Below are positions 15,883 through 40,102 of a DNA stretch of 64,000 nt, piece after piece. The notes under the pieces are model-generated. The model was given only the letters and a program-made list of their open reading frames with translations, was not told the DNA's origin and ran no database searches. The number at the start of each line of letters is the position of its first letter. Position 1 is the first letter of the stretch. Made by a program: the position numbers and the translations under genes. Source of the DNA: Planotetraspora mira. GTDB lineage: Bacteria > Actinomycetota > Actinomycetes > Streptosporangiales > Streptosporangiaceae. Location: positions 62,001 through 126,000 of the forward strand of contig NZ_BOOO01000008.1 in the NCBI RefSeq assembly GCF_016863275.1, written 5' to 3'.

Positions 15883-16932
15883 ATGGCGACGGACAGGCCC
15901 ATGCAGCTCGGCATGATCGGCCTCGGCCGGATGGGGGCCAACCTCGTCCGCCGGCTCATGCGGGACGGCCATCGCTGTGTCGTCTACGACGTCGACGAGA
16001 GCGCCGTGCGCGGACTCGAAGGCGAGGGCGCCACCGGCGCCACCTCCCTCCAGGACTTCGTGGCCAAGCTGGACAGGCCGCGGGCGATCTGGCTCATGCT
16101 GCCCGCGGCCGTCGTCGAGCCGATGCTCGGCAAGCTCACCGATCTGCTCGACGAGGACGACGTCGTGATCGACGGCGGCAACTCCTACTACCGGGACGAC
16201 ATCGCCCGGGCCAAACGGCTCGCCGCGAAGCGCATCCACTACGTCGACTGCGGCACGTCAGGCGGGGTCTGGGGCCTCGATCGCGGGTACTGCCTCATGA
16301 TCGGTGGCCAGGCCGCGGCGGTCGAGCGGCTTGATTCGATCTTCCGTACGATCGCGCCCGGCGCCGGCGGCGTGGAACCCACGCCGAGCAGGGCCAAGAG
16401 CGATGGGACCGCCGCGGAGGGCTACCTTCACTGTGGTTCCAGCGGCGCGGGGCACTTCGTGAAGATGATCCACAACGGCGTCGAGTACGGAATGATGGGC
16501 GCGATCGCCGAGGGCCTGTCCATCATCCGCCACGCCAACGTGGGCAAGCAGGGCCGCGAGATCGACGCCGAGACGGCGCCGCTCCGCGACCCCGAGGCGT
16601 ACCAGTACGACATCGACGTCGCCGAGGTCGCGGAGGTCTGGCGCCGCGGCTCCGTCATCTCGTCGTGGCTCGTCGACCTGCTCGCCGACGCGCTCGCCCG
16701 CTCGCCCCAACTCGACGGCTTCGAGGGGCGCGTCTCCGACTCCGGCGAGGGCCGCTGGACGGTGGACGCGGCGATCGACGAGGGCGTCCCCGCCCCGGTC
16801 ATCACGGCGGCCCTCATCGAGCGCTTCGAATCGCGCGGGCTCGGGCAGTTCACCGACGCGGCCCTGTCCGCGATGCGCAGCGAGTTCGGCGGCCACGCCG
16901 AAAAACCCACCCGCCCCACCCCTCCGGCGTGA
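15883..16932 (+). CDS. gnd: 6-phosphogluconate dehydrogenase, decarboxylating, short form
   Basis: This enzyme converts 6-phosphogluconate to ribulose-5-phosphate and CO2. At about 349 residues it belongs to the short (GndA/YqeC-like, often NAD+-preferring) branch rather than the 470-residue NADP+ enzymes. It has the Rossmann motif GLGRMGANLVRRL near residue 10, IDGGNSYYRDDIARAK near residue 97 and CGTSGGVWGLDRG near residue 122. The catalytic segment HCGSSGAGHFVKMIHNGVEY near residue 182 contains the Lys and Asn. The start is ATG 15883 after GGGAGGAGC. The stop codon TGA (16930-16932) is itself the first three bases of the 53-bp repeat core, so the gene ends inside the first repeat of an array. 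Confidence 0.94.
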   Translation: MATDRPMQLGMIGLGRMGANLVRRLMRDGHRCVVYDVDESAVRGLEGEGATGATSLQDFVAKLDRPRAIWLMLPAAVVEPMLGKLTDLLDEDDVVIDGGNSYYRDDIARAKRLAAKRIHYVDCGTSGGVWGLDRGYCLMIGGQAAAVERLDSIFRTIAPGAGGVEPTPSRAKSDGTAAEGYLHCGSSGAGHFVKMIHNGVEYGMMGAIAEGLSIIRHANVGKQGREIDAETAPLRDPEAYQYDIDVAEVAEVWRRGSVISSWLVDLLADALARSPQLDGFEGRVSDSGEGRWTVDAAIDEGVPAPVITAALIERFESRGLGQFTDAALSAMRSEFGGHAEKPTRPTPPA

Positions 16933-17099
16933 TCATGCACACCTTCGGCAAAAGCACGCGTGACCTGCCCCAACCCCGGGCGTGATCATGCACACATTCG
17001 GTCACGGCATCACTGACCTGGCCAAACCCCATCCGTGATCATGCACACTTTCCGCGACAGTGTCGCCGACCTGCTCAGATCTCTTCCGTGATCATGCAC
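16928..17099 (+). repeat. 53-bp repeat array A, four cores, sense to gnd
   Basis: The core TGATCATGCAC begins at 16930, 16983, 17036 and 17089, exactly 53 bp apart. Between cores the sequence is only partly conserved: TTCG or a variant just after the core and GACCTG about 31 nt in. The first core supplies the gnd stop codon, and the last is truncated just upstream of the next gene. Confidence 0.93.
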
Positions 17100-17171
17100 T
17101 GGCGGTATCGCAGGAGACGAGATCCGGGCGATCCCGGAGAAATGTCGGAGCGCTCTGGTACATGTAAAGCC

Positions 17172-17516
17172 ATGGGTGTGACCGTCGACGAGTTCCTGAA
17201 GATGCTGGGCGATCTCCCTGAGGTCAAGCTGAGCGACAGCGACAGCTGGATCGCGCTGAAGGTGCGGGGCAAGGGCTTCGGCTACCTGTGGGAGCGGACC
17301 GAGACCGTGGGCCTCAAGGCGACGATCGAGGAGCAGATCGCGCTGGTGGCCGAGCGCCCCGACGTGTTCGAGGTCCAGTTCACCACGGGCAGATTCGGCT
17401 GGGTCGTCGTGCATCTGGCGAAGATCGATCGGGAGGAGCTGTTCGAGCTCGTCACCGAGGCATGGTGCCTGACCGCCCCCAAACAACTCGTCACCGCCCA
17501 CGAATCCCGCCGCTGA
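17172..17516 (+). CDS. MmcQ/YjbR-family protein
   Basis: This small protein of 114 residues starts at ATG 17172 (MGVTVDEFLKMLGDLPEVK). An upstream in-frame start at 17088 lies in the repeat array and is rejected. It matches the MmcQ/YjbR CyaY-like fold: an N-terminal helix with LPEV, then ALKVRGKGFGYLWERT, a middle helix with EEQIALVAERPDVFEVQF, and the C-terminal GWVVVHLAKIDREELFELVTEAW. Family members have been called DNA-binding on structural grounds, but their function is not settled. It is bracketed by 53-bp repeat arrays on both sides. Confidence 0.85.
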   Translation: MGVTVDEFLKMLGDLPEVKLSDSDSWIALKVRGKGFGYLWERTETVGLKATIEEQIALVAERPDVFEVQFTTGRFGWVVVHLAKIDREELFELVTEAWCLTAPKQLVTAHESRR

Positions 17517-17534
17517 CCCTCCATCTCTCCCCGG

Positions 17535-17997
17535 CGTGATCATGCATACATTCGGGAAAACCGCCCCCGACCAGCCCCGACCTTGTTCGTGATCATGCAC
17601 ACATTCGGGAAAACCGCCCCCGACTAGCCCCGACATCGGGCGTGATCATGCACAGGTTCGGCGGAACCCCCTCCGACCTGCTTGAATCCACCCCATGATC
17701 ACGCACAGGTTCGGTCGCATTGCCTCCGACCAGCAACAATGCCATCCGTGATCATGCAGGAATTCGTGGCTGAGATGCCGGACTCCCCACGTCGACGGTT
17801 AGTGATCCACGCACGCGACACGTACGTGCATGATCACCGAGCCATTCAGCCCAGGTCAGAGCCGCATTCCCCGAACCTGTGCATGATCACGAACAACAAA
17901 GCGCCACGTCAAGGCAGCCTTCACCGAATGCGTGCATGATCACGGCCCAAGATGTGGCCGGTCAGGGACACTTCTGTCGAACCTGTGCATGATCACG
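17535..17997. repeat. 53-bp repeat array B, two arrays facing each other
   Basis: Plus-strand cores begin at 17537, 17590, 17643, 17696 and 17749, all 53 bp apart, with a degenerate sixth at 17803. Minus-strand cores (GTGCATGATCA on the plus strand) begin at 17826, 17879, 17932 and 17985, again exactly 53 bp apart. The first half follows the YjbR-like gene in its sense direction. The second half follows the convergent DeoR gene in its own sense direction. The innermost opposed cores at 17802-17837 form a long imperfect hairpin. Confidence 0.93.
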
Positions 17998-18029
17998 CTT
18001 CCTGGCTGTGCGTCACGCTCTGGTCATGC

Positions 18030-18800
18030 TCACACCCTGGTCACGGTGACGCCTGCCTCGGTGAGACGAGCCGCAGCGTCATCGGACAGCCCGTCGTCGG
18101 TGATCAAGGTGTCGATCGCGTCGATCGCGCAGATCCGCGCGAACGCCCGGCGGCCGACCTTGGACGCGTCTGCGACGACCACCACGCGGCCGGCCCGCTC
18201 GATGAGCTGGCTGTTGACGCTCGCCTCCCCCTCGTGATGCGCGGTCGCCCCCGCGTCGACGTCGATCGCGTCGACCCCGAGGAAGGCGACGTCGATCGCC
18301 ACCTGCTCCAGCACCCCCGACGCCAGCGGGCCGATCAGCTCGTATGACTGCGGCCGGGCCACCCCGCCGGTGACCACGATCTTCACGTGCTGGCGGACGG
18401 TCAACTCCGCCGCGATGTTCAGCGCATTGGTGACGATCGTGAAGCCGACCTCCGGATCCGCCACCGTGGCCAGCGCTCGCGCCACCTCCGAGGTGGTCGT
18501 GCCACCGTTCATCCCGACCACGGCGCCCGGCTCCACCAGGGCCGCGGCCGCCTTGGCGATGCGCTGCTTCTCCCCCGCGTGCCTGGCCGTCTTGTACCGC
18601 AGGGGGAGGTCGTAGCTCACACTCTGGGTGACCGCGCCGCCCCGCGTCCGCATCAGCAACTGCTGGCCCGCCAGTTCGTCGAAATCACGCCGGATCGTCG
18701 CGGTGGAGACCTCCAGCGACTGCGCGGCCTGCTCGACCGACAACCGGCCCTCCTCCGCGAGGAGTTCGAGGATGGCGTTCCACCGCTCGTACCTGCTCAC
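18030..18800 (-). CDS. DeoR-family transcriptional repressor
   Basis: This 256-residue regulator starts at GTG 18800. Its N-terminal DeoR helix-turn-helix includes GRLSVEQAAQSLEVSTATIR (residues 18-37) and RRDFDELAGQQLLMRTRGGA. The C-terminal sugar-phosphate-sensing domain has the DeoR features GMNGGTTTSEVARAL, TNALNIAAEL, VTGGVARPQSYELIGPLA and FLGVDAID, with the usual VVVADASKVGRRAFA near the end. It is transcribed divergently from the SIS-domain gene. A conserved 49-bp region in that gap recurs upstream of the sugar-kinase operon at 24.45 kb. It is therefore the best candidate for controlling both units, sensing a tagatose or galactosamine phosphate; the effector is inferred. Confidence 0.92.
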   Translation of the reverse strand: MSRYERWNAILELLAEEGRLSVEQAAQSLEVSTATIRRDFDELAGQQLLMRTRGGAVTQSVSYDLPLRYKTARHAGEKQRIAKAAAALVEPGAVVGMNGGTTTSEVARALATVADPEVGFTIVTNALNIAAELTVRQHVKIVVTGGVARPQSYELIGPLASGVLEQVAIDVAFLGVDAIDVDAGATAHHEGEASVNSQLIERAGRVVVVADASKVGRRAFARICAIDAIDTLITDDGLSDDAAARLTEAGVTVTRV

Positions 18801-18891
18801 CGTGCCTCACCCTGCCTACTCACGCTGCCCCGCCTCCCGGCGCACCCGCCGCGCAACAGCCTGGCACACACACCGGATCCCACCCCCAGCT

Positions 18892-18940
18892 CTGCACAAA
18901 GCTGTTCAATAATGCTATGAAATATGCAGAAACGAACCAT
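18892..18940 (+). promoter_or_regulatory. Conserved 49-bp control region, copy 1 (SIS gene)
   Basis: It matches 24452-24500 at 44 of 49 positions by eye, including the blocks CTGCACAAA, AATGCTATGAAA and AAACGAACCAT. It ends 13 bp before the start codon of the SIS gene. This is the probable promoter plus DeoR operator. Within it ATGAAATATGCA and GAAACGAAC look like spaced direct half-sites. Confidence 0.85.
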
Positions 18941-18953
18941 ACCTGGAGGCGGC

Positions 18954-19838
18954 ATGACCACCCATACCGAGGCCGAGATCGCCTCACAACCGGACTGCTG
19001 GCGCGAGGTGGCCGCCATTCCGGCCCAGGCCCTGCCCGCCCCCGGTGAACGCGTCGCCGTCGTCGGCTGCGGCACCTCCTGGTTCATCGCCCAGAGCTAC
19101 GCGGCCCTCCGCGAGCGTGCGGGACACGGGGAGACCGACGCATTCCCCGCTTCCGAGACGCCCCTCCGGCGGCCCTACGACCGCATCCTCGCCCTCACCC
19201 GGTCGGGGACCACCACCGAGGTCCTCGATCTCCTTCGCCAAGTGAAGGAGTCCGGCTCCTCCACCAGGACGACCGCCATCACCGCGGACGCGGACACGCC
19301 GGTGACCGGGCTGGCGGACGAGACGATCGTCCTCGGCTTCGCCGACGAGCGGTCCGTGGTGCAGACCCGCTTCGCCACGACCCAGCTCGCCCTCCTCCGC
19401 ACGCACCTCGGCGAGAACCTGGCCTCCGCCATCGCGGACGCCGAGCACGCGCTCGCCGAACCGCTACCGGAGTCGCTGATCGCCGCCGAGCAGTTTTCCT
19501 TCCTCGGCACCGGCTGGACGTACGGCATCGCCCAGGAGGCGGCGCTGAAGATGCGGGAGGCGTGCCGGGCCTGGACCGAGGCCCACCTCGCCATGGAATA
19601 CCGCCACGGCCCCATCGCCATCGCGGGACCGGGACGGATCACCTGGACGCTCGGCGCGGCTCCCAGCGGGATGCGCGACCAGGTCGAGGCCACCGGCGGC
19701 ACGCTCCTGGAGACGACCCTCGATCCCATGGCCGAACTCATCCGCGTCCAGCGGGTGGCTGTCGCCCGCGCCCACGCCGCCGGTCTGGACCCCGACCGGC
19801 CGTTGCACCTCACCCGGTCGGTGATCCTCCCCGCCTGA
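18954..19838 (+). CDS. SIS-domain aminosugar isomerase/deaminase (AgaS/GlmS-C like)
   Basis: This soluble protein of 294 residues contains two sugar-isomerase (SIS) domains. The first has VVGCGTSWFIAQSYAALRE near residue 34 and LTRSGTTTEVLDLL near residue 80. The second has FLGTGWTYGIAQEAALKMRE near residue 182 and the conserved Glu in AHLAMEYRHGPIA. The start is ATG 18954 after TGGAGGCGGC; the frame extends upstream to 18924, but that codon lies in the conserved operator. It shares its control region with the kinase-aldolase unit, so it probably converts galactosamine-6-phosphate to tagatose-6-phosphate plus ammonia. Other ketose-amine phosphates (FrlB-like) are possible substrates. Confidence 0.83.
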   Translation: MTTHTEAEIASQPDCWREVAAIPAQALPAPGERVAVVGCGTSWFIAQSYAALRERAGHGETDAFPASETPLRRPYDRILALTRSGTTTEVLDLLRQVKESGSSTRTTAITADADTPVTGLADETIVLGFADERSVVQTRFATTQLALLRTHLGENLASAIADAEHALAEPLPESLIAAEQFSFLGTGWTYGIAQEAALKMREACRAWTEAHLAMEYRHGPIAIAGPGRITWTLGAAPSGMRDQVEATGGTLLETTLDPMAELIRVQRVAVARAHAAGLDPDRPLHLTRSVILPA

Positions 19839-20017
19839 CGGCACACTCCATAACGCGAGAGCACCCCGGCCGTCGCCCCGCTTCCGTACGGCGGGACGGC
19901 GGGACGGGGCCTCGCCGTCCACGCGCCCGGCAGGCCGAAACCGAAACCGAGCAGCACCATCGGCACCGCGATCGAGGCGAGCAAGGTACGGCGCAAACCA
20001 TACCTATACGGGGCGGA

Positions 20018-20593
20018 TCAGGCCTCGTGAAGGCCGTCGGCGATCAGCCGACGCACGGCGTCGACGACGGTGCGCCTACGGCGGTCGCGGTCGGCCGGAG
20101 CGTTCGTGCCCAACTCGGGGGTGACCGATGCCCACGCCCCCGCCACCGAGATGACGAGCGTCAGGAGTTCGACCGGCGTGTAGTGATCTGACAAGACGCC
20201 CTCTCGCTGCGCCCGCGCCACCTTCTCCAGCTTCCCGACGTTGGACGTCACGATGGCCTGCAGCGGAGCCCCGTTCGGCCGCTCCAGCCGGTACCAGGTG
20301 GCCAGGCGGACGGTCGCGGGATCGTCCTCGTAACGGTCGAACAGCCGCCCGGCGTACCCCGGCAGGTCGGCGGCGTCGAACGGCACGTGCTCGATGGTCG
20401 CGGCGACCAGGGCGGTGAAGACCGCGTCGAACAACTGGTCCTTGTTGCCGAAGTACGCGTAGATCATCGCCTTGTTGCATCCGGCGGCTTCGGCGATGCG
20501 ATCGACCCGGGCCCCCGCGATGCCGCGCGCGGCGAACTCGTCGGCCGCCGCCTCCAGGAGTCGCTTCTTCGTCCGATCCGCATCCCGCACCAT
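20018..20593 (-). CDS. TetR-family repressor
   Basis: This regulator of about 191 residues starts at ATG 20593 (MVRDADRTKKRLLEAAADEF). The N-terminal helix-turn-helix reads VDRIAEAAGCNKAMIYAYFG (residues 31-50) and then NKDQLFDAVF. The C-terminal ligand domain resembles the TetR_C_41 type, with AAVRLATWYRLERPNG-like text, a dimerisation region and a basic tail. It is divergent from an SDR gene, and the shared gap carries two matching dyads. It most likely represses itself and the SDR in response to a small molecule. Confidence 0.92.
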   Translation of the reverse strand: MVRDADRTKKRLLEAAADEFAARGIAGARVDRIAEAAGCNKAMIYAYFGNKDQLFDAVFTALVAATIEHVPFDAADLPGYAGRLFDRYEDDPATVRLATWYRLERPNGAPLQAIVTSNVGKLEKVARAQREGVLSDHYTPVELLTLVISVAGAWASVTPELGTNAPADRDRRRRTVVDAVRRLIADGLHEA

Positions 20594-20619
20594 GCCCGCG
20601 ACCCTACCACTCGGGCCAA

Positions 20620-20686
20620 CCAACCGGTTAGTTGACACAACCCGCCGGGCGGGTGTTTCCTGGCTCGTATCCAACTGGTCAGTTAG
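20620..20686. promoter_or_regulatory. Paired operators between tetR and SDR genes
   Basis: CCAACCGGTTAGTTG at 20620-20634 and CCAACTGGTCAGTTAG at 20671-20686 are variants of one 15-16-mer, about 51 bp apart. The first overlaps TTGACA (20632-20637), a -35-like element. The arrangement fits TetR binding at two sites in the divergent promoter. Confidence 0.75.
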
Positions 20687-20704
20687 TTAATGAAGGAACT
20701 CCTC

Positions 20705-21547
20705 ATGTCCAAGACCTGGCTCATCACCGGCAGCTCCCGGGGCTTCGGCCGGGAGCTCGCCAAGGCGGCGCTCGACAACGGCGACAGGGTCGTCGCGACC
20801 GCGCGGCGTCCGGAGCAGCTCGACGATCTCGTGAAGGAGTACGGCGACGCCGTACGGGCGATCGCGCTCGACGTCACCGACGCGGCTGCCGCCCGCGCCG
20901 CCGTACAGACCGCGATCGACGAGTTCGGGACGCTCGACGTCGTGGTGAACAACGCCGGCTACGCCAACAGCGCCTCCATCGAGGACACCCCCGACGACGA
21001 TTTCCGCGCCCAGATCGAGACGAACCTGTTCGGCGTCGTCAACGTCACCAAGGCCGCCCTCCCCGTGCTGCACCGGCAGCGGTCGGGGCACTTCATCCAG
21101 TTCTCCTCCATCGGCGGACGCGTCGGCGGCACCCCGGGGATGGGCGCGTACCAGACCGCCAAGTGGGCCGTCGAAGGCTTCTCGGAGGTCCTCAGCAACG
21201 AGGTGAAGCCCTTCGGCGTCAAGGTCACGATCATCGAGCCCGGCGGTTTCCGCACCGACTGGGGCGGCTCCTCGATGCGCACCCCGCCGGTGAGCGAGGA
21301 CTACGACGAGACGGTCGGTGCGATGAACCGCTACCGGGAGTCCACCGTGCACCGGTGGGCGGGCGACCCGGAACGCGCGGCCAGGATCATCACCGACGTC
21401 GTGAGTCTCGACGAGCCGCCGCTGCGCCTCCTGCTCGGCGCAGGCGCGGTCGAGTTGGCGGAGCAGGCCTCCAAGGCGCGCGCCGCGGAAGCCGAGAAGT
21501 GGGCCGACGTCAGCAGGTCCGCCGACTTCCCCGCCGACGAGTCCTGA
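20705..21547 (+). CDS. SDR-family oxidoreductase
   Basis: This classical short-chain dehydrogenase has 280 residues and starts at ATG 20705 (MSKTWLITGSSRGFGREL) after GAAGGAA; the 20690 ATG overlaps the operator region. It has the TGSSRGFG nucleotide-binding motif, VVNNAGYAN near residue 82, the catalytic Ser in IQFSSIGGRVG and YQTAKWAVEGFSE with Tyr-x-x-x-Lys, and EPGGFRTDW afterwards. It is controlled by the adjacent TetR, judging from the paired operators. The substrate is unknown. This TetR-SDR pair splits the aminosugar catabolic genes and looks like an insertion relative to them. Confidence 0.9.
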   Translation: MSKTWLITGSSRGFGRELAKAALDNGDRVVATARRPEQLDDLVKEYGDAVRAIALDVTDAAAARAAVQTAIDEFGTLDVVVNNAGYANSASIEDTPDDDFRAQIETNLFGVVNVTKAALPVLHRQRSGHFIQFSSIGGRVGGTPGMGAYQTAKWAVEGFSEVLSNEVKPFGVKVTIIEPGGFRTDWGGSSMRTPPVSEDYDETVGAMNRYRESTVHRWAGDPERAARIITDVVSLDEPPLRLLLGAGAVELAEQASKARAAEAEKWADVSRSADFPADES

Positions 21548-21641
21548 CGGGGCACCCGGACCACCCGTCGTACATCCAGAGCTGTACGGCACGGCGGCGG
21601 ATCGGCGGCCGGCTCACCGGGCAGGACCTGGAGCTCGCAGG

Positions 21642-22775
21642 TCACCGGTAGACGCTGGCGATCGCACGCAGGTCGGGGTGCGTATTCGAGGCCGGGCGCA
21701 GGCGCGGCGCGAGGGAACGCTTCACCTTCCGGGGCACGCCCGGGCCCAGACCCACATATTCCAGGCGGGTGCCGGCGGGGACACCTTCCAGCAGGGTCGT
21801 GGCGCCCCTTCCGGTCACCCCGGTGTGGCGGAGCTCGAGCCGGCGGAGCGGGCTGCCCGCGAGGGCGCTGGTGAGCGCCTCCACACCGAGGTCCCCGGTG
21901 ACGTTGGCGGGTGCGCCGAGGGCACGCTCGGACGGCGGCCGGCCGAGGTCCAGCACCTCGATCCCATCGAGAGCCGCGGCCAGCGCACGCGCACCGGCGG
22001 GTCCGATCCCGTTGCCGCCGAGGCCGAGCCCTATCGGCCGCGCGGGGTCGGCCGCCGCCGCGAGCGCCGCGGCACCCTCGTCGCCCAGATGATTGGCCGC
22101 CAGGTAGAGCTCGCGGACACCCGCGTCGCGAATCAGCGCGGCCAGCAAGGGGGCGGCGTCGGGACCGAGGCCGTTGCCTCCGAGGAAGAGCCGCTCGATC
22201 GGCCGGGCCCTGCCGGTGAGGGCGGCGAGCAGCGCACCCAGCCCGTCCACGGTGAGCCCGGTGTTCACCAGGTCGAGCGTGCGTAGCGTGGTGTTGCGGC
22301 GCACCATCGTGGCGAGCGCCCGGACTCCCGCGTCGCCGATCGGATTGCGCTTGAGCCAGAGGCCGTGGACGGTGTCGTCGCCGGCCAGCCGGTCGGCCAA
22401 CGCGGCGGCTCCACCCGGGTCGATGCGGTTGCAGCCGAGATACAACGTCCGCAGCGAGTGGCCCGGCTTCAGCGCCCCGGCGATCGTCCGGGCCCCCTCG
22501 GAGCCGATGGCGTTGGTGCCGAGCAGCAGGTGAGCGACGTGGGGCGAGGCGGTCACCACAGGCAGCAGCCGGATGACGCCCGCCGCGCCGAGTCCCTGCT
22601 TGCAGAGGTCGACCCGCCCGTCCGGCCGTACGGTTCCCACCGGGAACGTCTCGTCGGCGCCGACCGGGACCGAGGTCGCCAGCCTGGCGAGAAGCGGGCT
22701 GAGCGCCGCGGGGTCGACGAGCGGCATATCGGGATGCTCGATCACGGGGCAGCGCACGGGCGTCGGCTGGGTCAT
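21642..22775 (-). CDS. Leucine-rich-repeat (ribonuclease-inhibitor-like) protein
   Basis: This protein of about 377 residues starts at MTQPTPVRCPVIEHPDMPLV and is built from roughly ten 28-residue LRR units. Clear examples are SLRTLYLGCNRIDPGGAAAL, TLRTLDLVNTGLTVDGLGAL, RPIERLFLGGNGLGPDAAPL and VRELYLAANHLGDEGAAALA, the RNI/GALA subtype with LxLxxNxIGxxGA. There is no signal peptide or membrane segment, so it is probably cytoplasmic. LRRs normally make protein-protein contacts. The start overlaps the stop of the upstream zinc-ribbon SDR by one base (TGATG), so the two are translated together and may act as a complex. I know no characterised pair of this kind. Confidence 0.85.
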   Translation of the reverse strand: MTQPTPVRCPVIEHPDMPLVDPAALSPLLARLATSVPVGADETFPVGTVRPDGRVDLCKQGLGAAGVIRLLPVVTASPHVAHLLLGTNAIGSEGARTIAGALKPGHSLRTLYLGCNRIDPGGAAALADRLAGDDTVHGLWLKRNPIGDAGVRALATMVRRNTTLRTLDLVNTGLTVDGLGALLAALTGRARPIERLFLGGNGLGPDAAPLLAALIRDAGVRELYLAANHLGDEGAAALAAAADPARPIGLGLGGNGIGPAGARALAAALDGIEVLDLGRPPSERALGAPANVTGDLGVEALTSALAGSPLRRLELRHTGVTGRGATTLLEGVPAGTRLEYVGLGPGVPRKVKRSLAPRLRPASNTHPDLRAIASVYR

Positions 22776-24241: not shown

Positions 24242-24264
24242 CGACTCTCCTCACGAATGAGCGG

Positions 24265-24345
24265 CACGGCAGGCCGGATTCGAACCGGCGTCCTCCCCCG
24301 GGCAAAGGGCACGACGGCCTCTGCACGACAGCCTCGCCTTCGGTC
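24265..24345 (-). ncRNA. tRNA-like element in the leader of the SDR-LRR operon
   Basis: Read on the minus strand, the 3' half is close to a tRNA(Ala-UGC). It has a TTTGCCC loop with U33 and anticodon UGC, a GGGGG half-stem, an AGGAC variable region and a perfect T-arm GCCGG-TTCGAAT-CCGGC (24273-24289). Then come 7 acceptor-like bases and G73. The 5' half does not fold well: no 7-bp acceptor partner is found and the D-arm is poor. It ends 23 nt before the SDR start codon, so it should lie in the mRNA leader. It could be a tRNA remnant or a tRNA-mimic regulatory element. Confidence 0.35.
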
Positions 24346-24451
24346 ACCTTAGCGACATTTCCGACATCTGATCTATCGCTCGCGGGCCTGCACGGATCGG
24401 CTAGATCATCCGATGGGCGTCGCTGTGACGCACATCACGCACGGTTCATCG

Positions 24452-24500
24452 CTGCACAAATCTGCTCATTAATGCTATGAAAGATGCATAAACGAACCAT
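24452..24500 (+). promoter_or_regulatory. Conserved 49-bp control region, copy 2 (kinase-aldolase unit)
   Basis: It matches the control region of the SIS gene (18892-18940) at 44 of 49 positions, with no indel. The similarity appears to continue weakly through the ribosome binding site into the first codons, suggesting that one promoter arose by duplication of the other. Confidence 0.85.
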
Positions 24501-24519
24501 CCTCCGTCGGGAGGCCGCA

Positions 24520-24567
24520 GTGATCTCCCCCACCGACGCATGCGACCAGGCAGAACTCGCGGCATGA
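24520..24567 (+). CDS. Possible 15-codon leader ORF coupled to the kinase
   Basis: GTG 24520 lies 5 nt after a strong GGGAGG and encodes VISPTDACDQAELAA. Its TGA overlaps the kinase ATG as ATGA. The kinase start has no good ribosome binding site of its own, so its translation may depend on this short frame. The peptide vaguely resembles the first residues of the SIS protein (MTTHTEAEIAS), which would fit a duplicated promoter plus gene start. Confidence 0.4.
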   Translation: MISPTDACDQAELAA

Positions 24568-25529
24568 TCCTCACCGTCACCCTCAACCTGGCTCTCGACG
24601 TGACCTACGTGGTCGGCGATGTCGACTGGAACGGCATGAACCGCGTCAGCGCGGTCCACCGCCGCGCGGGCGGCAAGGGCGTGAACGTCGCCCGCGTGCT
24701 CACTTCTCTCGGCCACGAGGTCCTCGCCACGGGCCTCGCCGGAGGCCGTACCGGCGACGCCGTTCTGGCCGACCTCGCCCTCGCGGGCGTCGCCGCGGAC
24801 TTCACCCCCATAGCCGCCGAGTCACGCACCACCCTCGTGGTCTCCGACCCCGGCGCGTCCGCGTCCGGTGCGGCCGCAGCCCCACGGAACGCGCTGTTCA
24901 ACGAGCCGGGCCCGGTGGTGACCGACGAGGACCTCGTCCGCTTCACCCGCCACTTCACCCGTCTCGCCAGCCGGGCGGACGCCGTCGTGATCTCCGGGAG
25001 CCTGCCGCCCGGCGTTCCCGCCGACTTCTACGCCGGGCTCGCGGCCATGGCCGCGGAGCGAGGCGTGCCCGCGATCGTGGACGCCGACGGCGCGCCGCTC
25101 CGCCACGCCCTGAGCGGCCGTCCCGCGATCGTCAAACCCAACGCGGAGGAACTCGCGCGGGCCATGCCCGGCGAGGGCCGGGTGACGTCGCACCCGTCTC
25201 CCGACGCGGCCCGGGCGGAGGCGTTGCGGAGAGCCGGCGCGGAGTCCGTCGTGGTCTCACTCGGAGCAGGCGGGGCGCTCGCGGTGACACCTGGCGGATC
25301 CTGGCGGGCCCACATGCCGCGCGAGATCTCGGGAAACCCGACCGGCGCGGGAGACGCCCTGGTGGCGGGGCTCGCCCTCGGCCTCGTGGAAGCCACCCCC
25401 TGGCCGGACCGGCTGCGCCGCGCCACCGCGCTGGGAGCCGCCGCCGTCGCCGCTCCCCTCGCCGGCGACTTCGACCCCGGCGTCTACCGGACCCTCCACC
25501 CCGCGATCAGCATCGAGCCCGTCGCCTGA
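24564..25529 (+). CDS. PfkB-family tagatose-6-phosphate/1-phosphofructokinase
   Basis: This sugar-phosphate kinase of about 321 residues belongs to the LacC/FruK branch of the PfkB (ribokinase) family. It starts at ATG 24564 (MILTVTLNLALDVTYVVGD). It has the N-terminal signature GGKGVNVARVLTSLG near residue 38, ISGSLPPGVPADFY near residue 145, PNAEELARA, and the C-terminal ATP-site motif NPTGAGDALVAGLALG near residue 262, whose Asp is the catalytic base. The aldolase gene follows after 37 bp. The shared control region with the SIS gene suggests it phosphorylates tagatose-6-phosphate to the 1,6-bisphosphate. Fructose-1-phosphate is the other candidate substrate, but no PTS genes are present. 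Confidence 0.87.
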   Translation: MILTVTLNLALDVTYVVGDVDWNGMNRVSAVHRRAGGKGVNVARVLTSLGHEVLATGLAGGRTGDAVLADLALAGVAADFTPIAAESRTTLVVSDPGASASGAAAAPRNALFNEPGPVVTDEDLVRFTRHFTRLASRADAVVISGSLPPGVPADFYAGLAAMAAERGVPAIVDADGAPLRHALSGRPAIVKPNAEELARAMPGEGRVTSHPSPDAARAEALRRAGAESVVVSLGAGGALAVTPGGSWRAHMPREISGNPTGAGDALVAGLALGLVEATPWPDRLRRATALGAAAVAAPLAGDFDPGVYRTLHPAISIEPVA

Positions 25530-25566
25530 CCCCCCACCCGAAGCACCACAGAAACGGAGGCCGGCC

Positions 25567-26388
25567 ATGCCCCTCGTCGGCATCGGCGACATCACCCGTC
25601 ACGCTCCGGCGGGCGTCGGCGCCTTCAACGTCATCCTGCTGGAGCACGCCGAGGCGATCGTCGCGGGAGCGGAGGCCGCGGACACCCCCGTGGTCCTGCA
25701 GATCAGCGAGAACGCGGTCCGCTACCACGGGGCTCTGGCCCCGATCGCGGTGGCCTCACTGGCCGTCGCCCGCGCCGCGGCCGTGCCCGTCGCCGTACAT
25801 CTCGACCACGCCACCGACCGCGCCCTGGTCGAGGAGGCCGTCACGCTCGGGCTCGGCTCGGTCATGTTCGACGCCTCCGCGCTCGACGACGAGGCCAACG
25901 TGGCGGCCACAGCGGACGTCGTCGCCTGGTGCCACGAGCGCGGCGTGTGGGTGGAGGCCGAGCTCGGCGAGGTCGGCGGGAAGGACGGGGTGCACGCGCC
26001 GGGCGCCCGCACCAAACCACACGAGGCCGCCGACTATGTGGCGCGTACGGGTGTCGACGCCCTGGCGGTGGCCGTCGGCAGCTCCCACGCGATGACCACC
26101 AAGGACGCCGTGCTCGACCTCGACCTCATCGCGGAGCTCCACGCAGCGGTGCCGGTCCCGCTCGTGCTGCACGGCTCCTCGGGAGTGCCCGACGACACCC
26201 TCCGCGCCGCCGTACGGCACGGCATGAAGAAGATCAACATCGCCACGCATCTCAACAAGGCCTTCACCGAGGCCGTCCGCGGTCACCTCGACACGCACCC
26301 GTCGGTGGTCGACTCCCGGGCGTACGTCAGGGTCGGGCGCGACGCCGTCGCCCGCGAGGTCACCCATCTCCTCAACGTCCTGTCATGA
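25567..26388 (+). CDS. Class II tagatose/fructose-bisphosphate aldolase
   Basis: This zinc-dependent ketose-bisphosphate aldolase has 273 residues, close to KbaY/GatY/FbaA length. It shows the metal-binding HLDHATDRALVEEAV near residue 78, EAELGEVGGKDG near residue 133, AVAVGSSHA with a metal His, and LVLHGSSGVPDDTLRAAVRHG with another His near residue 202. The NIATHLNKAF phosphate-binding segment follows. ATG 25567 follows ACGGAGG. It completes the route from tagatose-6-phosphate via the bisphosphate to DHAP plus glyceraldehyde-3-phosphate. A 53-bp repeat array starts 17 nt after the stop codon. Confidence 0.9.
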   Translation: MPLVGIGDITRHAPAGVGAFNVILLEHAEAIVAGAEAADTPVVLQISENAVRYHGALAPIAVASLAVARAAAVPVAVHLDHATDRALVEEAVTLGLGSVMFDASALDDEANVAATADVVAWCHERGVWVEAELGEVGGKDGVHAPGARTKPHEAADYVARTGVDALAVAVGSSHAMTTKDAVLDLDLIAELHAAVPVPLVLHGSSGVPDDTLRAAVRHGMKKINIATHLNKAFTEAVRGHLDTHPSVVDSRAYVRVGRDAVAREVTHLLNVLS

Positions 26389-26402
26389 CCCCCACCGCAT
26401 GC

Positions 26403-26620
26403 CGTGATCATGCACAGGTTCGTGCGCAGCCATGCTGACCTGCGCAAACCTCCGCCGTGATCATGCACGGATTCGTACGCGGCCGTGCTGACCTGCGCAT
26501 ACGGTCCGCGTGATCATGCACGGATTCGCTGACGGCCGCTCTGACCTGGGCATTCCTCTTGCGTGATCATGCGCAAGATGCGGGGCCCAATTGACCTGTG
26601 CGCAACTTCCGCGAGAACGC
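26403..26620 (+). repeat. 53-bp repeat array C, four cores, sense to the aldolase
   Basis: Cores begin at 26405, 26458, 26511 and 26564, each 53 bp apart; the last reads TGATCATGCGCAAG. The unit sequences TTCGTnCGC...GCTGACCTG are more alike here than in arrays A and B. From 26458 onward the array is part of the long inverted repeat that recurs at 30.08-30.45 kb. Confidence 0.93.
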
Positions 26621-26826
26621 TGCGACCATAGCCGCAGCGACCGCGCGCAGGTTACTTCGCGTTCTCTGCTCGACGGGCGATGTGTCCGCCGAAACTATTC
26701 GGGCGCCCCTTCGATGTCGCCGATCGAATAGGTGGAGACAATGAACTCCCGCAACCGTGTGCGTGCCGCGTATAGAGCGCGCGTGGTTTCCACGGCGTTA
26801 TCGATCAGAGCTCTAAGCTCATTCTC
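26458..26826. repeat. 369-bp inverted repeat, left arm
   Basis: This arm matches the reverse complement of 30080-30448 with no indel and about five mismatches by eye. It comprises two and a half repeat units, about 80 bp of unique spacer and the last 44 codons of the hypothetical gene ending at 26695. Confidence 0.92.
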
Positions 26827-27282
26827 TGAATTCGGAAGACCGTCGACCTGCGCCTTGTATCGGAGAATCCATTCCGCACGATCCTCTGTGGCGTTGACGA
26901 CCTGATCGAACACTTCAGGACAATAGATCTTGAGGAACGTCCGGAGGCTGCGACGGGCCGCCTGACGACGCTTCGAAGCCCGCCAGCGCACCAGTATCGG
27001 CGCCTTCTCCGTGTAGACGCCGTCGATATCCTTCAAGGTCACCCGAAGGACATCGGCACGCAACTGCCGGGGACCGATTCGTAGCTCTCGGGGATCAATT
27101 CCTGGCGTGAGGAAGACCGCCGTCTCCTCCGCCATGTCGCACCAGTCGTCGAGAATCGCGAAGAGCTCCATAAGTGATTCGCGTACGTCTTGCCGTAAAT
27201 GCTGGTCGGATTTTCTCACCGCGCCGAGAATTGTAGACCCGCCGCGGGCGATTGCTTCCACATCGGCCAGTCCAGGAATCAA
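26695..27282 (-). CDS. Hypothetical protein, lower-GC accessory gene
   Basis: The predicted protein has 195 residues and starts at TTG 27282, 6 nt after GGAG; an in-frame TAG lies not far upstream. It is mostly helical and charged, with no signal peptide or membrane segment (QDVRESLMELFAILDDWCDM, ELRALIDNAVETTRALYAAR). I do not recognise the family. GC content and codon usage are visibly lower than in the catabolic genes around it, suggesting recent acquisition. Its last 44 codons lie in the left inverted-repeat arm, and a second, truncated copy of them lies at 30080-30211 in the opposite orientation. Confidence 0.65.
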   Translation of the reverse strand: MIPGLADVEAIARGGSTILGAVRKSDQHLRQDVRESLMELFAILDDWCDMAEETAVFLTPGIDPRELRIGPRQLRADVLRVTLKDIDGVYTEKAPILVRWRASKRRQAARRSLRTFLKIYCPEVFDQVVNATEDRAEWILRYKAQVDGLPNSENELRALIDNAVETTRALYAARTRLREFIVSTYSIGDIEGAPE

Positions 27283-27438
27283 TTCCGTCTCCGTCGCCAG
27301 TGTCGATATGCCGACCCTACTTGTGCCGCTCTACATTGAGCCATTTTCATCGTGATGATGGTGGGCATCGACGGTGTGGCCGATGAGGGTTCCTCCTGCA
27401 GCGGATGTTTGTCCGTGAGCGTGGACGTTGGGTTCAGA

Positions 27439-27771
27439 TCAGCCTGCCTCGGGCGTCAGGCGGTATCGGTTGCAGACGTCCAGCAACAGAGCAGTCCTGA
27501 TCTCGAGTGGCTTGTCGATGCCGTCCAACTCCACGTCGACCAGCACTGTGTCGTCCGTGCGAGTGCGCGCGAAGTGCATCTCGACGCGGGGCCGCCCGTC
27601 CAGGACGAACGTGAACCAGCTGTCGTCGTCGGCGTCGGAGCCCTCGACGCCGGCAGTGAGCGTGCCGTCATCGAGTCGGCACCGGACAAGATCGGCAATC
27701 GTCTGGGCGAACGGCAACAGATTCGCACGCCAGATCCAGCCGTGCATCGTGCCGCGTGGCTCGGCCTGCAT
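27439..27771 (-). CDS. Hypothetical small protein
   Basis: The predicted protein has 110 residues and starts at ATG 27771, with a second Met 8 codons in. It has an acidic middle (GSDADDDSWFTFVLDGRPRVEMHF) and alternating hydrophobic strands, which resembles a small beta-sandwich. I see no signal peptide or membrane segment and do not recognise the family. It lies inside the segment bounded by the inverted repeats, just before the transposase remnant, so it may be a passenger gene. Confidence 0.5.
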   Translation of the reverse strand: MQAEPRGTMHGWIWRANLLPFAQTIADLVRCRLDDGTLTAGVEGSDADDDSWFTFVLDGRPRVEMHFARTRTDDTVLVDVELDGIDKPLEIRTALLLDVCNRYRLTPEAG

Positions 27772-27885
27772 CCGTGCAGGCTAGATTCCGGCCCGGTGCG
27801 GCCGCAAGGAAAGCGCGATGAAGACATTCTCATGCTGCGTCATGGCGGGTCTCGACGTCGCCTTTGCGCGCCGGTACGGGTCCAG

Positions 27886-28425
27886 CGAGGCTGCTGGACA
27901 TGATCCCGGGCCGCTCCAAGGCCGCGTTCAAGGCCTGGCTTACCCAGCGCCCCCAGGCGTGGCGCGAGGCCGTGGAAGTCGTCGCGATGGACGGGTTCAC
28001 CGGCTTCAAGACCGCCGCCGCTGAGGAGATCCCCGCCGCGGTCGCGGTGATGGACCCCTTCCACATGGTGCGCCTTGCCGGCGACGCCCTCAACGACTGC
28101 CGCCGCCGCGTTCAGCAGACCACCCGCGGCCGCCGCGGCCGTAAGAACGACCCGCTCTACCGTGCCCGGCGAACCCTGCACACCGATGCCGACCTGCTCA
28201 CCGACAAGCAGGCCGCCCGACTCACGGCCCTGTTCGCCATCGATGAGCACGTCGAGGTCGAGGCCACCTGGGGCATCTACCAGCGGATGATCGCCGCTTG
28301 CCGGCACCCGACCCAGCCGCAGGCCGCGAGCTGATGGTCAAGCTGATCGAGTCGCTCAGCGCCGGCGTCCCCAGGCCGCTGGTCGAGATCGCCAAGCTCG
28401 GCCGCACCCTGAGCAAGTTGCCGCC
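27886..28425 (+). pseudogene. ISL3-family transposase remnant, truncated and frameshifted
   Basis: The frame through 28310 encodes the middle of an ISL3-type transposase: RSKAAFKAWLTQRPQAWREA, the catalytic VAMDGFTGFKTA and VMDPFHMVRLAGDALNDCRR, then VEATWGIYQRMIAA. Around 28305-28310 the match jumps to another frame (DPAAGRELMVKLIESLSAGV, EIAKLGRTLSK), so a frameshift is present. Everything N-terminal to ARLLDM and C-terminal to GRTLSK is missing, including the last DDE-domain residues. No terminal inverted repeats were found. The element is dead, and its position marks this segment as a hot spot for insertions. Confidence 0.85.
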
Positions 28426-28551
28426 AGGTGAGGTGCTGGGGCGGATCGGTGTCGGCTGCCCAACCAGGGACAGCGATGCGCAAACGCAGCCGGAGGCCCG
28501 ATCTTGTGTCACCGTTCGCAGTGGACTTCTTCGCGTACCCGCTCAGATCGG

Positions 28552-29133
28552 TCAACGGCGCACCCGATAGCGCAGGTGAAGCACCCGGTTGCCCTGAATC
28601 ACCACCTCAGGATCCTCCAACAGGTGCTGCGCGTGGACCGACCCGAAGTAGCGCTTGCCGGACCCGAACACGACGGGTACGACGTCCATGCGCACCTCGT
28701 CGATCAGGCCCGCGGCAAGCACCTGGCCACCGACGTCGCCAGCGGCGACCTCGACCATGCGGTCACCCGCAAGCTCCTGCGCCTTGGCCACGGCTGCCTC
28801 GACGCCGTCGACGAAGTGAAACGGCGCCTCGGGGTCCCAGCCCTCGGGCATCGGCCGGTGCGACACGACGACCACGTGATCGATCCCGCCCGGAGGCTTC
28901 CCGTCCCAGCCGTCCGTCATGTCGAAGACGTGGCGGCCGACGATCGTGACTCCGATCTGGTCCCAGTACGGCCGGGTGTAGTCGTAGGACGTCTGCGACA
29001 CCTTCAGCTCGCCGCTCTCGTCCAACGGGACGTCACCGCTGGACAACCAGTCGAACAGCGGTCCGGGCTGGTCATTCTCGTCCGCGACGAAGCCGTCCAC
29101 CGACACCGAGCTGTACATGACCACCTTGCCCAC
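28552..29133 (-). CDS. Dihydrofolate reductase-family protein (RibD C-terminal fold)
   Basis: This protein of 193 residues begins MGKVVMYSSVSVDGFVADEN, the typical opening of the DHFR-like/RibD_C family (YxSxSLDGFIA). It continues with IGVTIVGRHVFDMTDGWDG, the NADPH-binding MVEVAAGDVGGQVLAAGLID and VPVVFGSGKRYFG. Family members are NADPH-dependent reductases of pteridine- or pyrimidine-like compounds, usually of unknown substrate. The canonical folate reductases differ clearly, so this is not the housekeeping folA. The adjacent AraC gene on the same strand, 67 bp upstream, is a frequent partner in actinomycetes. Confidence 0.88.
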   Translation of the reverse strand: MGKVVMYSSVSVDGFVADENDQPGPLFDWLSSGDVPLDESGELKVSQTSYDYTRPYWDQIGVTIVGRHVFDMTDGWDGKPPGGIDHVVVVSHRPMPEGWDPEAPFHFVDGVEAAVAKAQELAGDRMVEVAAGDVGGQVLAAGLIDEVRMDVVPVVFGSGKRYFGSVHAQHLLEDPEVVIQGNRVLHLRYRVRR

Positions 29134-29200
29134 GGGGCTCTCCTCTGCTTTGGGGTGCCCTCAAATTAGCGTGTCGTGAGCTGTCGCTTCTTGTAAGAAA

Positions 29201-30046
29201 TCAATCGGCCGGCAGCGGCCAGCCGTCCATCACGTGGCCGGGATGTTCGCGCAGGAACCGCCGCCGGACTTCGACGTACCGGGTCGGCGTGAGCCCGGTG
29301 AACGCCCGGAACTCGTGGCCGAAGTGGGCCTGGTCGAAGTAGCCTGCGCCACCGGCGAGGTCGCCCCAGTCGATCGGTCCGGCGGGGTTGATCGCGAAAA
29401 CGGTGGCGGCGAAGCGGTAGGTTCGGGCCAGCCGCTTCGGCGTGACGCCGATGAGCTCCTTGAACCGCTGTGCCAGATGAGTGCTGCTGACACCGGCTGC
29501 CACCCTCAGGTCGCCGATCGCCACCGCCCCGCTGGTCGCCGCGATGACACTGCTCGTATGGCGGACCAGCCCCAGGCCGGCGGTCTCGCACAGCCGTCGC
29601 ATCAGCTCCTCCTCGAGCAGCGTCAGCATCTCGTGCGGTCCGTCCGCCGTGGCCAGCCGGTCTCGCAGCTCAGCAATGGCGGGCCGGCCCCAAACCTGCT
29701 CTACCGTCACAGGCCGGTCACACAGCTCGGCCGCGGGCATCGGCAGGAACGGCGCCAGCCCCCACGGCTTGACGTGCACGCCGACGGACCGGGTCCGGAG
29801 TGGGTAGCCGAACTCCAACGCGCGGGTGGGCATGGTGACCACGCAGCCGTCGGCGTACTCGGCCGTCTCGATGTCGGTGCCCGCGCGGATGCGGAACGGC
29901 GCCCCGAGGTTGACGATGAGCAACGCCGACGGCATCGGCGGCAGCATCAGCCGGGCGTACGGCGGCGCACCCTCCAGGTAGTAAAGGTCGTCGATCAGCC
30001 CGTCCAGCGGCGGTCGCGGCACTCTGGACACGTACTCCACGCCCAC
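29201..30046 (-). CDS. AraC-family transcriptional regulator
   Basis: The regulator has about 281 residues. Its N-terminal ligand domain has GAPPYARLMLPPMPSALLIV and LRTRSVGVHVKPWGLAPFL, as in the ThuR/DUF6597-type sensory domain. The C-terminal double helix-turn-helix includes VAAGVSSTHLAQRFKELIGV and the conserved GYFDQAHFGHEFRAFTGLTP. The start is taken at GTG 30046; other GTGs lie nearby and no strong ribosome binding site is visible. It probably regulates the reductase gene downstream. Its upstream edge is 4 nt from a 30-bp inverted copy of part of its own coding region, and 34 nt from the right inverted-repeat arm. Confidence 0.86.
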   Translation of the reverse strand: MGVEYVSRVPRPPLDGLIDDLYYLEGAPPYARLMLPPMPSALLIVNLGAPFRIRAGTDIETAEYADGCVVTMPTRALEFGYPLRTRSVGVHVKPWGLAPFLPMPAAELCDRPVTVEQVWGRPAIAELRDRLATADGPHEMLTLLEEELMRRLCETAGLGLVRHTSSVIAATSGAVAIGDLRVAAGVSSTHLAQRFKELIGVTPKRLARTYRFAATVFAINPAGPIDWGDLAGGAGYFDQAHFGHEFRAFTGLTPTRYVEVRRRFLREHPGHVMDGWPLPAD

Positions 30047-30079
30047 AGCATCGCCGCCACCGTGTTCGCGATCAACTCC

Positions 30080-30448
30080 GAGAATGAGCCTAGAGCTCTG
30101 ATCGATGACGCCGTGGAAACCACGCGCGCTCTATACGCGGCACGCACACGGTTGCGGGAGTTCATTGTCTCCACCTATTCGATCGGCGACATCGAAGGGG
30201 CGCCCGAATAGTTTCGGCGGACACATCGCCCGTCGAGCAGAGAACGCGAAGTAACCTGCGCGCGGTCGCTGCGGCTATGGTCGCAGCGTTCTCGCGGAAG
30301 TTGCGCACAGGTCAATTGGGCCCCGCATCTTGCGCATGATCACGCAAGAGGAATGCCCAGGTCAGAGCGGCCGTCAGCGAATCCGCGCATGATCACGCGG
30401 ACCGTATGCACAGGTCAGCACGGCCGCGTACGAATCCATGCATGATCA
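30080..30448. repeat. 369-bp inverted repeat, right arm, with truncated gene copy
   Basis: This is the reverse complement of 26458-26826, about 98.6% identical by eye. Bases 30080-30211 on the plus strand hold the last 43-44 codons of the hypothetical gene (ALIDDAVETTRALYAAR to the same TAG stop) without its first 150 codons, so this copy is a pseudogene fragment. Beyond 30211 the copy runs into the repeat array. Confidence 0.92.
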
Positions 30449-30560
30449 CGACAGAGGTTCACGCAGGTCAACACCGCCGCACACGAACCTGCGCATGATC
30501 ACGACAGAGGTTTGCGCAGGCCAGCACCGCCGCACACGAACCTGTGCATGATCACGGCGG
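30335..30560 (-). repeat. 53-bp repeat array D, five cores, sense to the oxidoreductase
   Basis: The plus-strand TGATCA begins at 30337, 30390, 30443, 30496 and 30549, always 53 bp apart; the minus-strand core is TGATCATGCRCA. The outermost core provides the TGA stop codon of the oxidoreductase gene. The two outer units are nearly identical to each other, which suggests recent unit duplication. Confidence 0.93.
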
Positions 30561-39614: not shown

Positions 39615-39944
39615 ATGGCACGCGCACGACGTCCCTCCCCGCAGACCGCGGCCGTGCTCACCACCCTCGCCGAGACGGGCGTGGGCTGGAGCCACGGCTA
39701 CGACCTGTGCCGCGCCCTCGGCCTGAAGGCAGGCACGGTCTACCCGATCCTCATCCGCCTCTTCGAGCGCGGGCTGGTGGAGACCTCCTGGGAGACCGAC
39801 CCGCCACGCGGGCGGCCGGCCCGGCACCTGTACCGGCTCACCATCGCGGGCGCCGAGCTCGCGCGCTCCGTCGCCGTACCGGCGCGCGCCGGTGACAGTG
39901 CACCCGCCCCCGGCGCGGCCCGGCTCGCGCCCAGAACCACCTGA
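39615..39944 (+). CDS. PadR-family transcriptional regulator
   Basis: This short winged-helix regulator has 109 residues. The DNA-binding domain reads SPQTAAVLTTLAETGVGWSH, GYDLCRALGLKAGTVYPILI, RLFERGLVETSWE and the wing RGRPARHLYRLTIAGAE. The C-terminus is Ala/Pro-rich and lacks the long dimerisation helices of PadR-s2. The protein is preceded by a perfect dyad overlapping its probable transcription start. It likely controls itself and the membrane protein gene about 160 bp downstream, the common PadR plus DUF1700-like permease arrangement. Confidence 0.9.
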   Translation: MARARRPSPQTAAVLTTLAETGVGWSHGYDLCRALGLKAGTVYPILIRLFERGLVETSWETDPPRGRPARHLYRLTIAGAELARSVAVPARAGDSAPAPGAARLAPRTT

Positions 39945-40102
39945 CCCCGCGACAACCCGACTCGCGACCGCCTGACCCACGACCACCCGAGACTGCTCGA
40001 CCCGCGGTCCACCTGACCCGTGACCACTCGACGCTCGACCCGCGGACCACCCGGCCCGCAACCATCCGACCCCCGGCCCGCCCTGTCGTTCGGAGGCCCT
40101 CG
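39945..40102 (+). repeat. Low-complexity intergenic DNA
   Basis: This is a degenerate run of short units resembling GACCACCYGACCCGCG between padR and the membrane-protein gene. No gene is seen. Confidence 0.5.

Follow-up and report, generated by a model that had tools for sequence, protein, structure and literature searches.

Repeat arrays behind gene ends in the Planotetraspora mira window

The 64 kb stretch of the Planotetraspora mira genome analysed here (the window; G000:C8:62001-126000, from the 9.03 Mb genome G000, in 100 contigs) carries five arrays of an oriented core sequence repeated at a 53 bp period, each lying in sense orientation behind the 3′ end of a gene. The arrays contain 22 cores (4 + 5 + 4 + 4 + 5), each with 0–1 mismatch, and neighbouring cores within an array are always 53 bp apart. 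Array 1 (nt 16930–17099, + strand) has four cores, at 16930, 16983, 17036 and 17089, and the TGA of the first (16930) is the stop codon of a 6-phosphogluconate dehydrogenase type gene (15883–16932, + strand; PF03446/PF00393). The five cores of array 2a (17537–17759, + strand) begin 20 nt past the stop, at 17516, of a YjbR gene (17172–17516, + strand; PF04237), while the four of array 2b (17826–17995, − strand) lie 35 nt from the stop, at 18030, of a DeoR regulator gene (18030–18800, − strand; PF00455/PF08220). These two arrays face each other, separated by 87 bp and out of phase. Array 3 (26405–26574, + strand; four cores, the last with one mismatch) starts 16 nt past the stop, at 26388, of a class II aldolase gene (25567–26388, + strand; PF01116), and array 4 (30332–30554, − strand; five cores) has its outermost TGA (30554) as the stop codon of a GFO/IDH/MocA oxidoreductase gene (30552–31802, − strand; PF01408). 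Genes were called with a simple caller of our own, with no curated annotation, and some gene contexts may be wrong.

The repeat is well above background. Allowing up to two mismatches, TGATCATGCAC had 42 matches in the window against 11.9 ± 3.2 in shuffled sequence, and none of 100 shuffles reached 42. A weight matrix of 58 positions, trained on 146 exact-core units (the window's own, G000:C1 and G001:C1), found 19–20 units in the window against 0 in the reversed control, and zero units outside the five arrays in the whole 64 kb. The original prediction of a 53-bp-period repeat confined to these places is thereby confirmed, with corrections to its details: it had given four arrays, the second block being in fact two facing ones, and a degenerate core in addition to 22 clear ones, where there are 22 in all; it had also listed one 54 bp step, which was not found. 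Nor are its last two arrays independent of each other. Array 3 lies in the left arm (26400–26832, + strand) and most of array 4 in the right arm (30074–30506, − strand) of an inverted duplication with arms of 433 bp that are 96% complementary, and because of this the two are counted as one event; the duplication may have split a single facing array pair. It encloses a partial ISL3 transposase (PF01610) at 27900–28334, and a RibD-C-like gene (28552–29133) and an AraC-type regulator (29201–30046) also lie between the arms. Another tandem repeat, with a unit of about 38 bp of the ACCACCCGACCCGCG type, lies at 39936–40081 and is apparently unrelated to the arrays.

Each unit has the layout CGTGATCATGCACA-N2-TTCG-N13-TGACCTGC-N~13, and so forms an oriented, only partly palindromic site (CGTGATCATGCAC..TTCG, followed by TGACCTGC about 31 bp further). 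Among 139 units found in G000 by the matrix, and so conditioned on it, the nine core positions TGATCATGC are 97–100% conserved and the exact 11-mer GTGATCATGCA is present in 107. The left half of the core (CGTGATC) is better conserved than the ATGCA half. Roughly 20–30 of the 53 positions are conserved, and no single identical repeat is formed. The terminal core of an array has weak TTCG and GACCTG blocks, and the DNA ahead of the first core is C-rich. A hairpin within the unit (CAGGTT/GACCTG) was considered and dropped, since the units of G004 have AGAAGTT at this place and would pair poorly (no covariation was counted).

Placement, conservation and copying in the genome

The exact 11-mer GTGATCATGCA occurs 739 times in G000 (reversed control, 0) and 290–1083 times in each of the five Planotetraspora genomes examined. 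Among the matches listed, a longer pattern was found in Planotetraspora silvatica, kaengkrachanensis, phitsanulokensis and thailandica and, outside the genus, once each in two metagenome-assembled genomes (MAGs) of other phyla. The spacing seen in the window holds throughout the genus: in G000, of 114 intervals no longer than 120 bp, 104 measure 53 bp (four of the remainder measure 106 bp), as do 303 of 347 intervals at the Planotetraspora loci of the longer-pattern scan, a count that leaves out L033 and L088, the MAG matches with single isolated cores.

Placement was studied in 833 kb of G000 (C1, C2 to 300 kb, C3 and the window), which hold 36 arrays of 2–5 units, one of them not assignable to a gap between genes. 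By extrapolation, a genome would hold some 390 arrays and about 1500 units. In 27 of the 36 arrays the first core falls between 35 nt before and 110 nt after a stop codon on the same strand, and in eight this stop codon is formed by the TGA of the core. Placement at gene ends is thus not random, although the statement that all arrays follow genes in sense orientation, correct for the window, does not extend to the genome.

Among gaps of 100 bp or more, those between convergent genes hold an array most often (9/48), those between tandem genes less so (12/171) and those between divergent genes rarely (2/105; convergent vs divergent, p = 0.0005). As arrays themselves lengthen gaps, the counts for all junctions are also given: convergent 10/132, tandem 12/466 and divergent 2/131 (convergent vs divergent, p = 0.03; convergent vs tandem, p = 0.015), the tenth convergent array being in a gap shorter than 100 bp. 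Adjacent arrays on opposite strands were ordered + then − in all 11 cases in G000, with one further adjacent pair being + +. The enrichment between convergent genes, together with the phased spacing and the presence of arrays in tandem gaps lacking a sense stop, would also fit a topological or nucleoid role, in which the arrays attract gyrase in the manner of bacterial interspersed mosaic elements (BIMEs), absorb positive supercoils between convergent genes or mark chromosome domains. This is considered quite unlikely, as the + then − order in all 11 cases in G000 and the use of the core's TGA as stop codon in 8 of 36 arrays point to gene ends and not merely to the space between genes, and a difference of 287 to 1 core copies between two members of one genus (G384 and G340) would be odd for a general topological need.

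Several features would also fit a role in RNA, the arrays being part of the 3′ untranslated region and helping Rho to load, blocking exonucleases or providing stops in all frames to release ribosomes from the message. They follow stop codons in sense; the sense strand of the spacers is rich in C (C 1591 : G 1260, compared with 9826 : 9564 for array-free 3′ ends over their first 60 nt), and C is in strong excess behind the cores of the distant actinomycete G325 (C 1068 : G 493). TGA occurs in all three frames in 60 of 61 arrays of at least three units, because 53 mod 3 = 2, and facing cores would be able to pair in RNA. Unstructured RNA hardly explains an exact 53 bp spacing between unrelated spacers, however, and spacings of 52 and 54 bp occur, of which 54 keeps frame. 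Nine of the 36 arrays have no sense stop in front of them, and Rfam gave no match in the window at gathering score, so that a role in RNA seems rather unlikely.

Strong hairpins, taken as 40-nt windows that reach −25 kcal/mol or lower in the 110 nt after the stop, are rare at array ends. They were found at 1/38 array ends and 101/328 array-free ends (Fisher p = 7e-5) in a count that pools G000 and its relative G001, so that orthologues count twice; G000 alone gives 1/25 and 63/206 (p = 0.004). The arrays fail the test for an intrinsic terminator, a strong GC hairpin and U tract right after the gene. In 19 kb of the window there are six terminator-like sites, one of them inside array 2b, against 5.2 expected by chance.

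Of the 36 arrays of G000, 19 have orthologous flanks in the G001 stretch compared, and four of these have them in G003 as well. The array was kept in 21 of 23 such comparisons, often with a changed number of units; the exception, a locus of G001 that accounts for two comparisons, holds a different, gene-bearing segment. The spacers of orthologous arrays are mostly 0.4–0.8 alike between G000 and G001, which is less than array-free intergenic DNA (0.877 alike, with 0.136 gaps per mismatch, in 132 regions), and the spacers therefore turn over by copying and loss. Little weight is placed on the identities of single units, which are conditioned on detection by the matrix and on matching by identity.

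Between arrays, the unconserved spacer positions are on average 37% identical (103 G000 units). Fifteen pairs of G000 units reach at least 75%: seven join facing arrays of one locus, five lie within one array, two stem from the inverted duplication of the window and one (0.76) links different loci. Pairs between loci at this level number 5 of 9867 in P. silvatica (143 units, 36 loci; mean 0.36) and 2 of 9057 in P. kaengkrachanensis (137 units, 35 loci; mean 0.37), where chance is estimated to give about 0.5 per species. Most copying of units is thus local, giving tandem and inverted copies, whereas copies at different loci are rare in these samples but do occur; near-identical pairs between loci could number hundreds genome-wide, since only about one unit in ten is represented in each sample. 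Duplication of complete 53-bp units accounts for some of the regularity of the spacing, and the turnover of spacers weakens any argument for selection on spacing from missing indels alone. Selection on both core and spacing is nevertheless suggested as the simplest reading, as both persist while the spacers are mostly unrelated.

The copying within arrays and between facing arrays, and the few near-identical units at different loci (one, five and two pairs in G000, P. silvatica and P. kaengkrachanensis), would also be expected of selfish or neutral repeats, spread by a putative recombinase and tolerated at harmless gene ends. Genus-specific extensions of the core and its sporadic presence in distant genera, with strong differences within a genus (see below), agree with such an origin. 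A recent burst, on the other hand, would not leave a mean spacer identity between loci that is near random (0.36–0.37), and the retention of arrays in 21 of 23 orthologous comparisons also speaks against a selfish or neutral origin. The transposase associated with repetitive extragenic palindromic (REP) sequences, RAYT (PF01797), was not matched in G000, G001, G002, G003, G062, G325, G384 or G531, and viral contigs had no match to either of two array patterns searched. A selfish or neutral origin is thus held to be improbable.

Spread of the core and exchange with a hairpin

The core was counted as CGTGATCWTGYA across 160 genomes of the family, with a reversed control. Copies number 717 in genus g59, 100–283 in g34, 146 in g51, 25–234 in g50, 35–165 in g48 and 86 in g25; a single genome each of g65 and g46 has 103 and 54, respectively. 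The other genomes outside Planotetraspora have 0–13 copies, and the control has 0–2. The core is therefore expanded sporadically in seven more genera of the family, and in variant form in an eighth: the g46 genome (G090) has hardly any CGTGATCWTGCA, so its core form differs. Among 345 genomes drawn from across the class, CGTGATCWTGCA was expanded in G325 (289 copies), G384 (287) and G531 (101) and, to a lesser extent, in G323 (35), G443 (29) and G366 (22), the six coming from four other families. G384 belongs to genus g106, another member of which, G340, has a single copy at similar genome size.

The arrangement of the cores differs between these lineages. Spacing in g59 is 53 bp in 20 and 52 bp in 10 of 41 intervals, and in g65 53 bp in 15 and 54 bp in 4 of 19, the g65 loci having been preselected with a 52–54 bp pattern and so being biased. 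The viewed g65 loci have arrays that open with a special first unit, CGTGATCTTGTAGTTTGTCGCA, in some with one base changed. At loci L205, L210 and L228 the layout is one of hairpins made of two facing cores, and G323 (L237) has tandem units of 22 bp. G325 carries ATCCCGCCACCC units, also with cores on the minus strand (L255 and elsewhere), and its spacing is array-specific. Within G325:C1 1-400000 the spacing is constant within arrays and variable between them (38,38; 54,54; 34,35; 45,45), as if each array had grown by its own tandem duplication. The original prediction placed the cores on one face of the helix; this is plausible because spacing is mostly 52–54 bp in three genera (with the bias noted for g65), but in distant genomes the core is found at 22, 37–38, 45 or 54 bp spacing or as a hairpin. 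Local copying of whole units can account for part of the constancy.

At one locus of genus g65 (L212), an array lies between two convergent genes in G120, G215 and G186, whereas G099, G154, G068 and G139 are array-free between the same two genes. The flanks are highly similar to those of G120 (G099, 97.2–97.7%; G154, 96.5–97.0%; G068 and G139, 91.0–92.8%), and homology ends within about 10 bp of the two putative stop codons. In place of the array, all four array-free species have a strong palindromic hairpin of −27.7 to −32.1 kcal/mol (shuffled means −21.0 to −24.4), while the array region of G120 reaches −20.0. A hairpin resembling a transcription terminator thus stands in for the array at one orthologous gene pair. 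A search for a comparable swap at a G384 locus gave a one-sided match in G340 only and was not used.

At a second g65 locus (L224; G120:C55, around 1340-1376) an array unit is used as coding sequence. In G120, G215 and G186 a reading frame with high GC content at third codon positions extends into the first unit, where the TGA within the TGACC block ends it, giving a tail of about 38 residues after a common anchor, compared with different tails of 62–84 residues in the other species. G068 and G139 read TARDLV at the same place as the array-bearing species, which hints that they may once have had the array.

Two candidate factors were compared with this distribution. RAYT transposase as the cause of the arrays was rejected: PF01797 was matched in 14 of 50 genomes, comprising 5 of 25 core-rich genomes (G004, G037, G086, G091 and G120) and 9 of 25 others. 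The second candidate is the arginine repressor ArgR, the core being taken as an ARG box. According to Table 1 of PMC5839063, the box AB.SCO5864_0, which contains CCGTGATCATGCAC, lies in a fragment shifted by Streptomyces coelicolor ArgR in a band-shift experiment. With an ARG matrix of 36 boxes, from which this core-containing box was left out, the cores have a median of 8.8 bits, a score that 453 further sites on the two strands of 746 kb also reach. The most conserved half of the core is the left one and not ATGCA, and each of the 47 genomes in which ArgR was matched has a single copy of it, with arrays or without. Arg_repressor_C was matched in 47 of 50 genomes; the three without a match (G086, G053 and G092) are draft assemblies, and all three are core-rich. 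Binding by ArgR is therefore very improbable. The co-occurrence with one DNA-binding protein that the original prediction had proposed was accordingly not found with either candidate.

Proposed function and comparison with known systems

The best single reading, to which we give a probability of about 0.38, is that the arrays are polar rows of phased binding sites at which a putative DNA-bound factor ends or insulates transcription. The arrays would be boundary elements of gene ends. Each unit is an oriented site; an array consists of 2–5 of them at intervals of 53 bp, equal to about five turns of the helix, and mostly begins right after a stop codon, and between convergent genes two arrays are often found face to face. 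A putative sequence-specific DNA-binding factor would fill the sites side by side, and the bound factor would stop or slow RNA polymerase arriving from the gene, making the array a protein-dependent, polar stand-in for an intrinsic terminator. We infer the binding of a protein, an action on DNA rather than RNA, and termination as the effect from the arrangement of the sites; the motif itself, its spacing and orientation, its place at gene ends, its conservation in position with turnover in unit number, the rarity of strong hairpins at Planotetraspora array ends and the swap at L212 are direct observations.

A number of results weigh against this proposal. No co-occurring binding factor was found among the candidates, and of the nine arrays without a nearby sense stop some are antisense to genes or upstream of them. 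Array ends are lower in GC, which weakens hairpins (shuffled means −14.7 vs −18.3), so that base composition explains part of their rarity; a strong hairpin is also found behind 8 of 54 arrays. In G325 the depletion is absent (3/25 element ends vs 8/62), arrays ordered − − then + + also occur, and some elements of G325 and G531 seem, by direct reading, to follow a hairpin (L255, L239). At L212, one of 20 shuffles equals the hairpin of G099 (−30.2 vs −30.1). L224 is mixed: among the four species lacking the array, the hairpin is exceptional in G099 alone (−38.2), G154 (−24.0) and G068 and G139 (−20.5) being within the range of shuffles, and the array region of G120 itself reaches −24.4.

The gene-end element is real, is probably under selection and is strongest in Planotetraspora. 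Among the papers listed by literature searches, some of them so wide as to exclude little, none was seen to describe these arrays, and no named repeat or REP/BIME class was matched; as far as searched the element is undescribed, and the findings suggest an undescribed way of marking gene ends, with about 390 arrays per genome (extrapolated) marking mostly gene ends by one motif and one spacing. To our knowledge, transcript ends of high-GC actinobacteria are poorly mapped. A wider proposition, which we regard as doubtful, is that some Actinomycetes end or insulate many genes by protein-dependent, orientation-specific phased arrays, that sister species switch between these and hairpin terminators genome-wide, and that CGTGATCATGCA is an ancient factor site around which each genus has built its own spacing. 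Array-bearing and array-free sister species provide a natural experiment for a search for the factor by gene content.

Among known systems, clustered regularly interspaced short palindromic repeats (CRISPR) have identical repeats of 24–48 bp and unique spacers, and the arrays, with no identical repeat and 36 loci of 2–5 units in 833 kb, are distinguished from them by anatomy, as the original prediction held. Miniature inverted-repeat transposable elements and other transposon-derived repeats consist of similar whole copies at different loci; here the spacers of different loci are on average 0.36–0.37 identical, and near-identical units at different loci are rare yet present (1, 5 and 2 pairs in the samples of three species). 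The ARG box is set apart by the median score of 8.8 bits and by ArgR not being found in three core-rich draft genomes.

REP and BIME elements sit at gene 3′ ends, and the arrays are like them in being extragenic, multi-copy and at gene ends (27/36 near a sense stop). One account describes REP/BIME as hundreds of short, clustered extragenic repeats for which functions in termination, mRNA stability and supercoiling have been proposed (PMC3733652). The array units, in contrast, are tandem direct repeats with a fixed 53 bp period and mostly unrelated spacers, and are not individual palindromes ending in GTAG or CGTC; GTAG does occur in the first unit of g65 arrays, and palindromic structures are formed where two cores face each other or, in other genera, by the hairpin forms. 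The arrays also differ from REP/BIME with RAYT in that PF01797 is unmatched in the genome of the window. With bidirectional intrinsic terminators they share the position between convergent genes, and in four species at one locus a hairpin stands in the array's place, but array ends rarely have strong hairpins (1/38). The arrays work somewhat like BIMEs or terminators, yet fail defining tests of both.

The mycobacterial interspersed repetitive units (MIRUs) are near-identical as whole units, include a 53 bp variant and have a relation to stop codons. By this general description, the arrays would resemble them in unit length, relation to stop codons and actinobacterial host, and differ in that mainly the core is fixed. 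Polar protein-binding boxes are found in tandem directly after eukaryotic rRNA genes, as Sal boxes bound by TTF-I, and here the likeness is one of analogy alone. If the arrays stop RNA polymerase, they would be a bacterial counterpart of such protein-bound terminator boxes.

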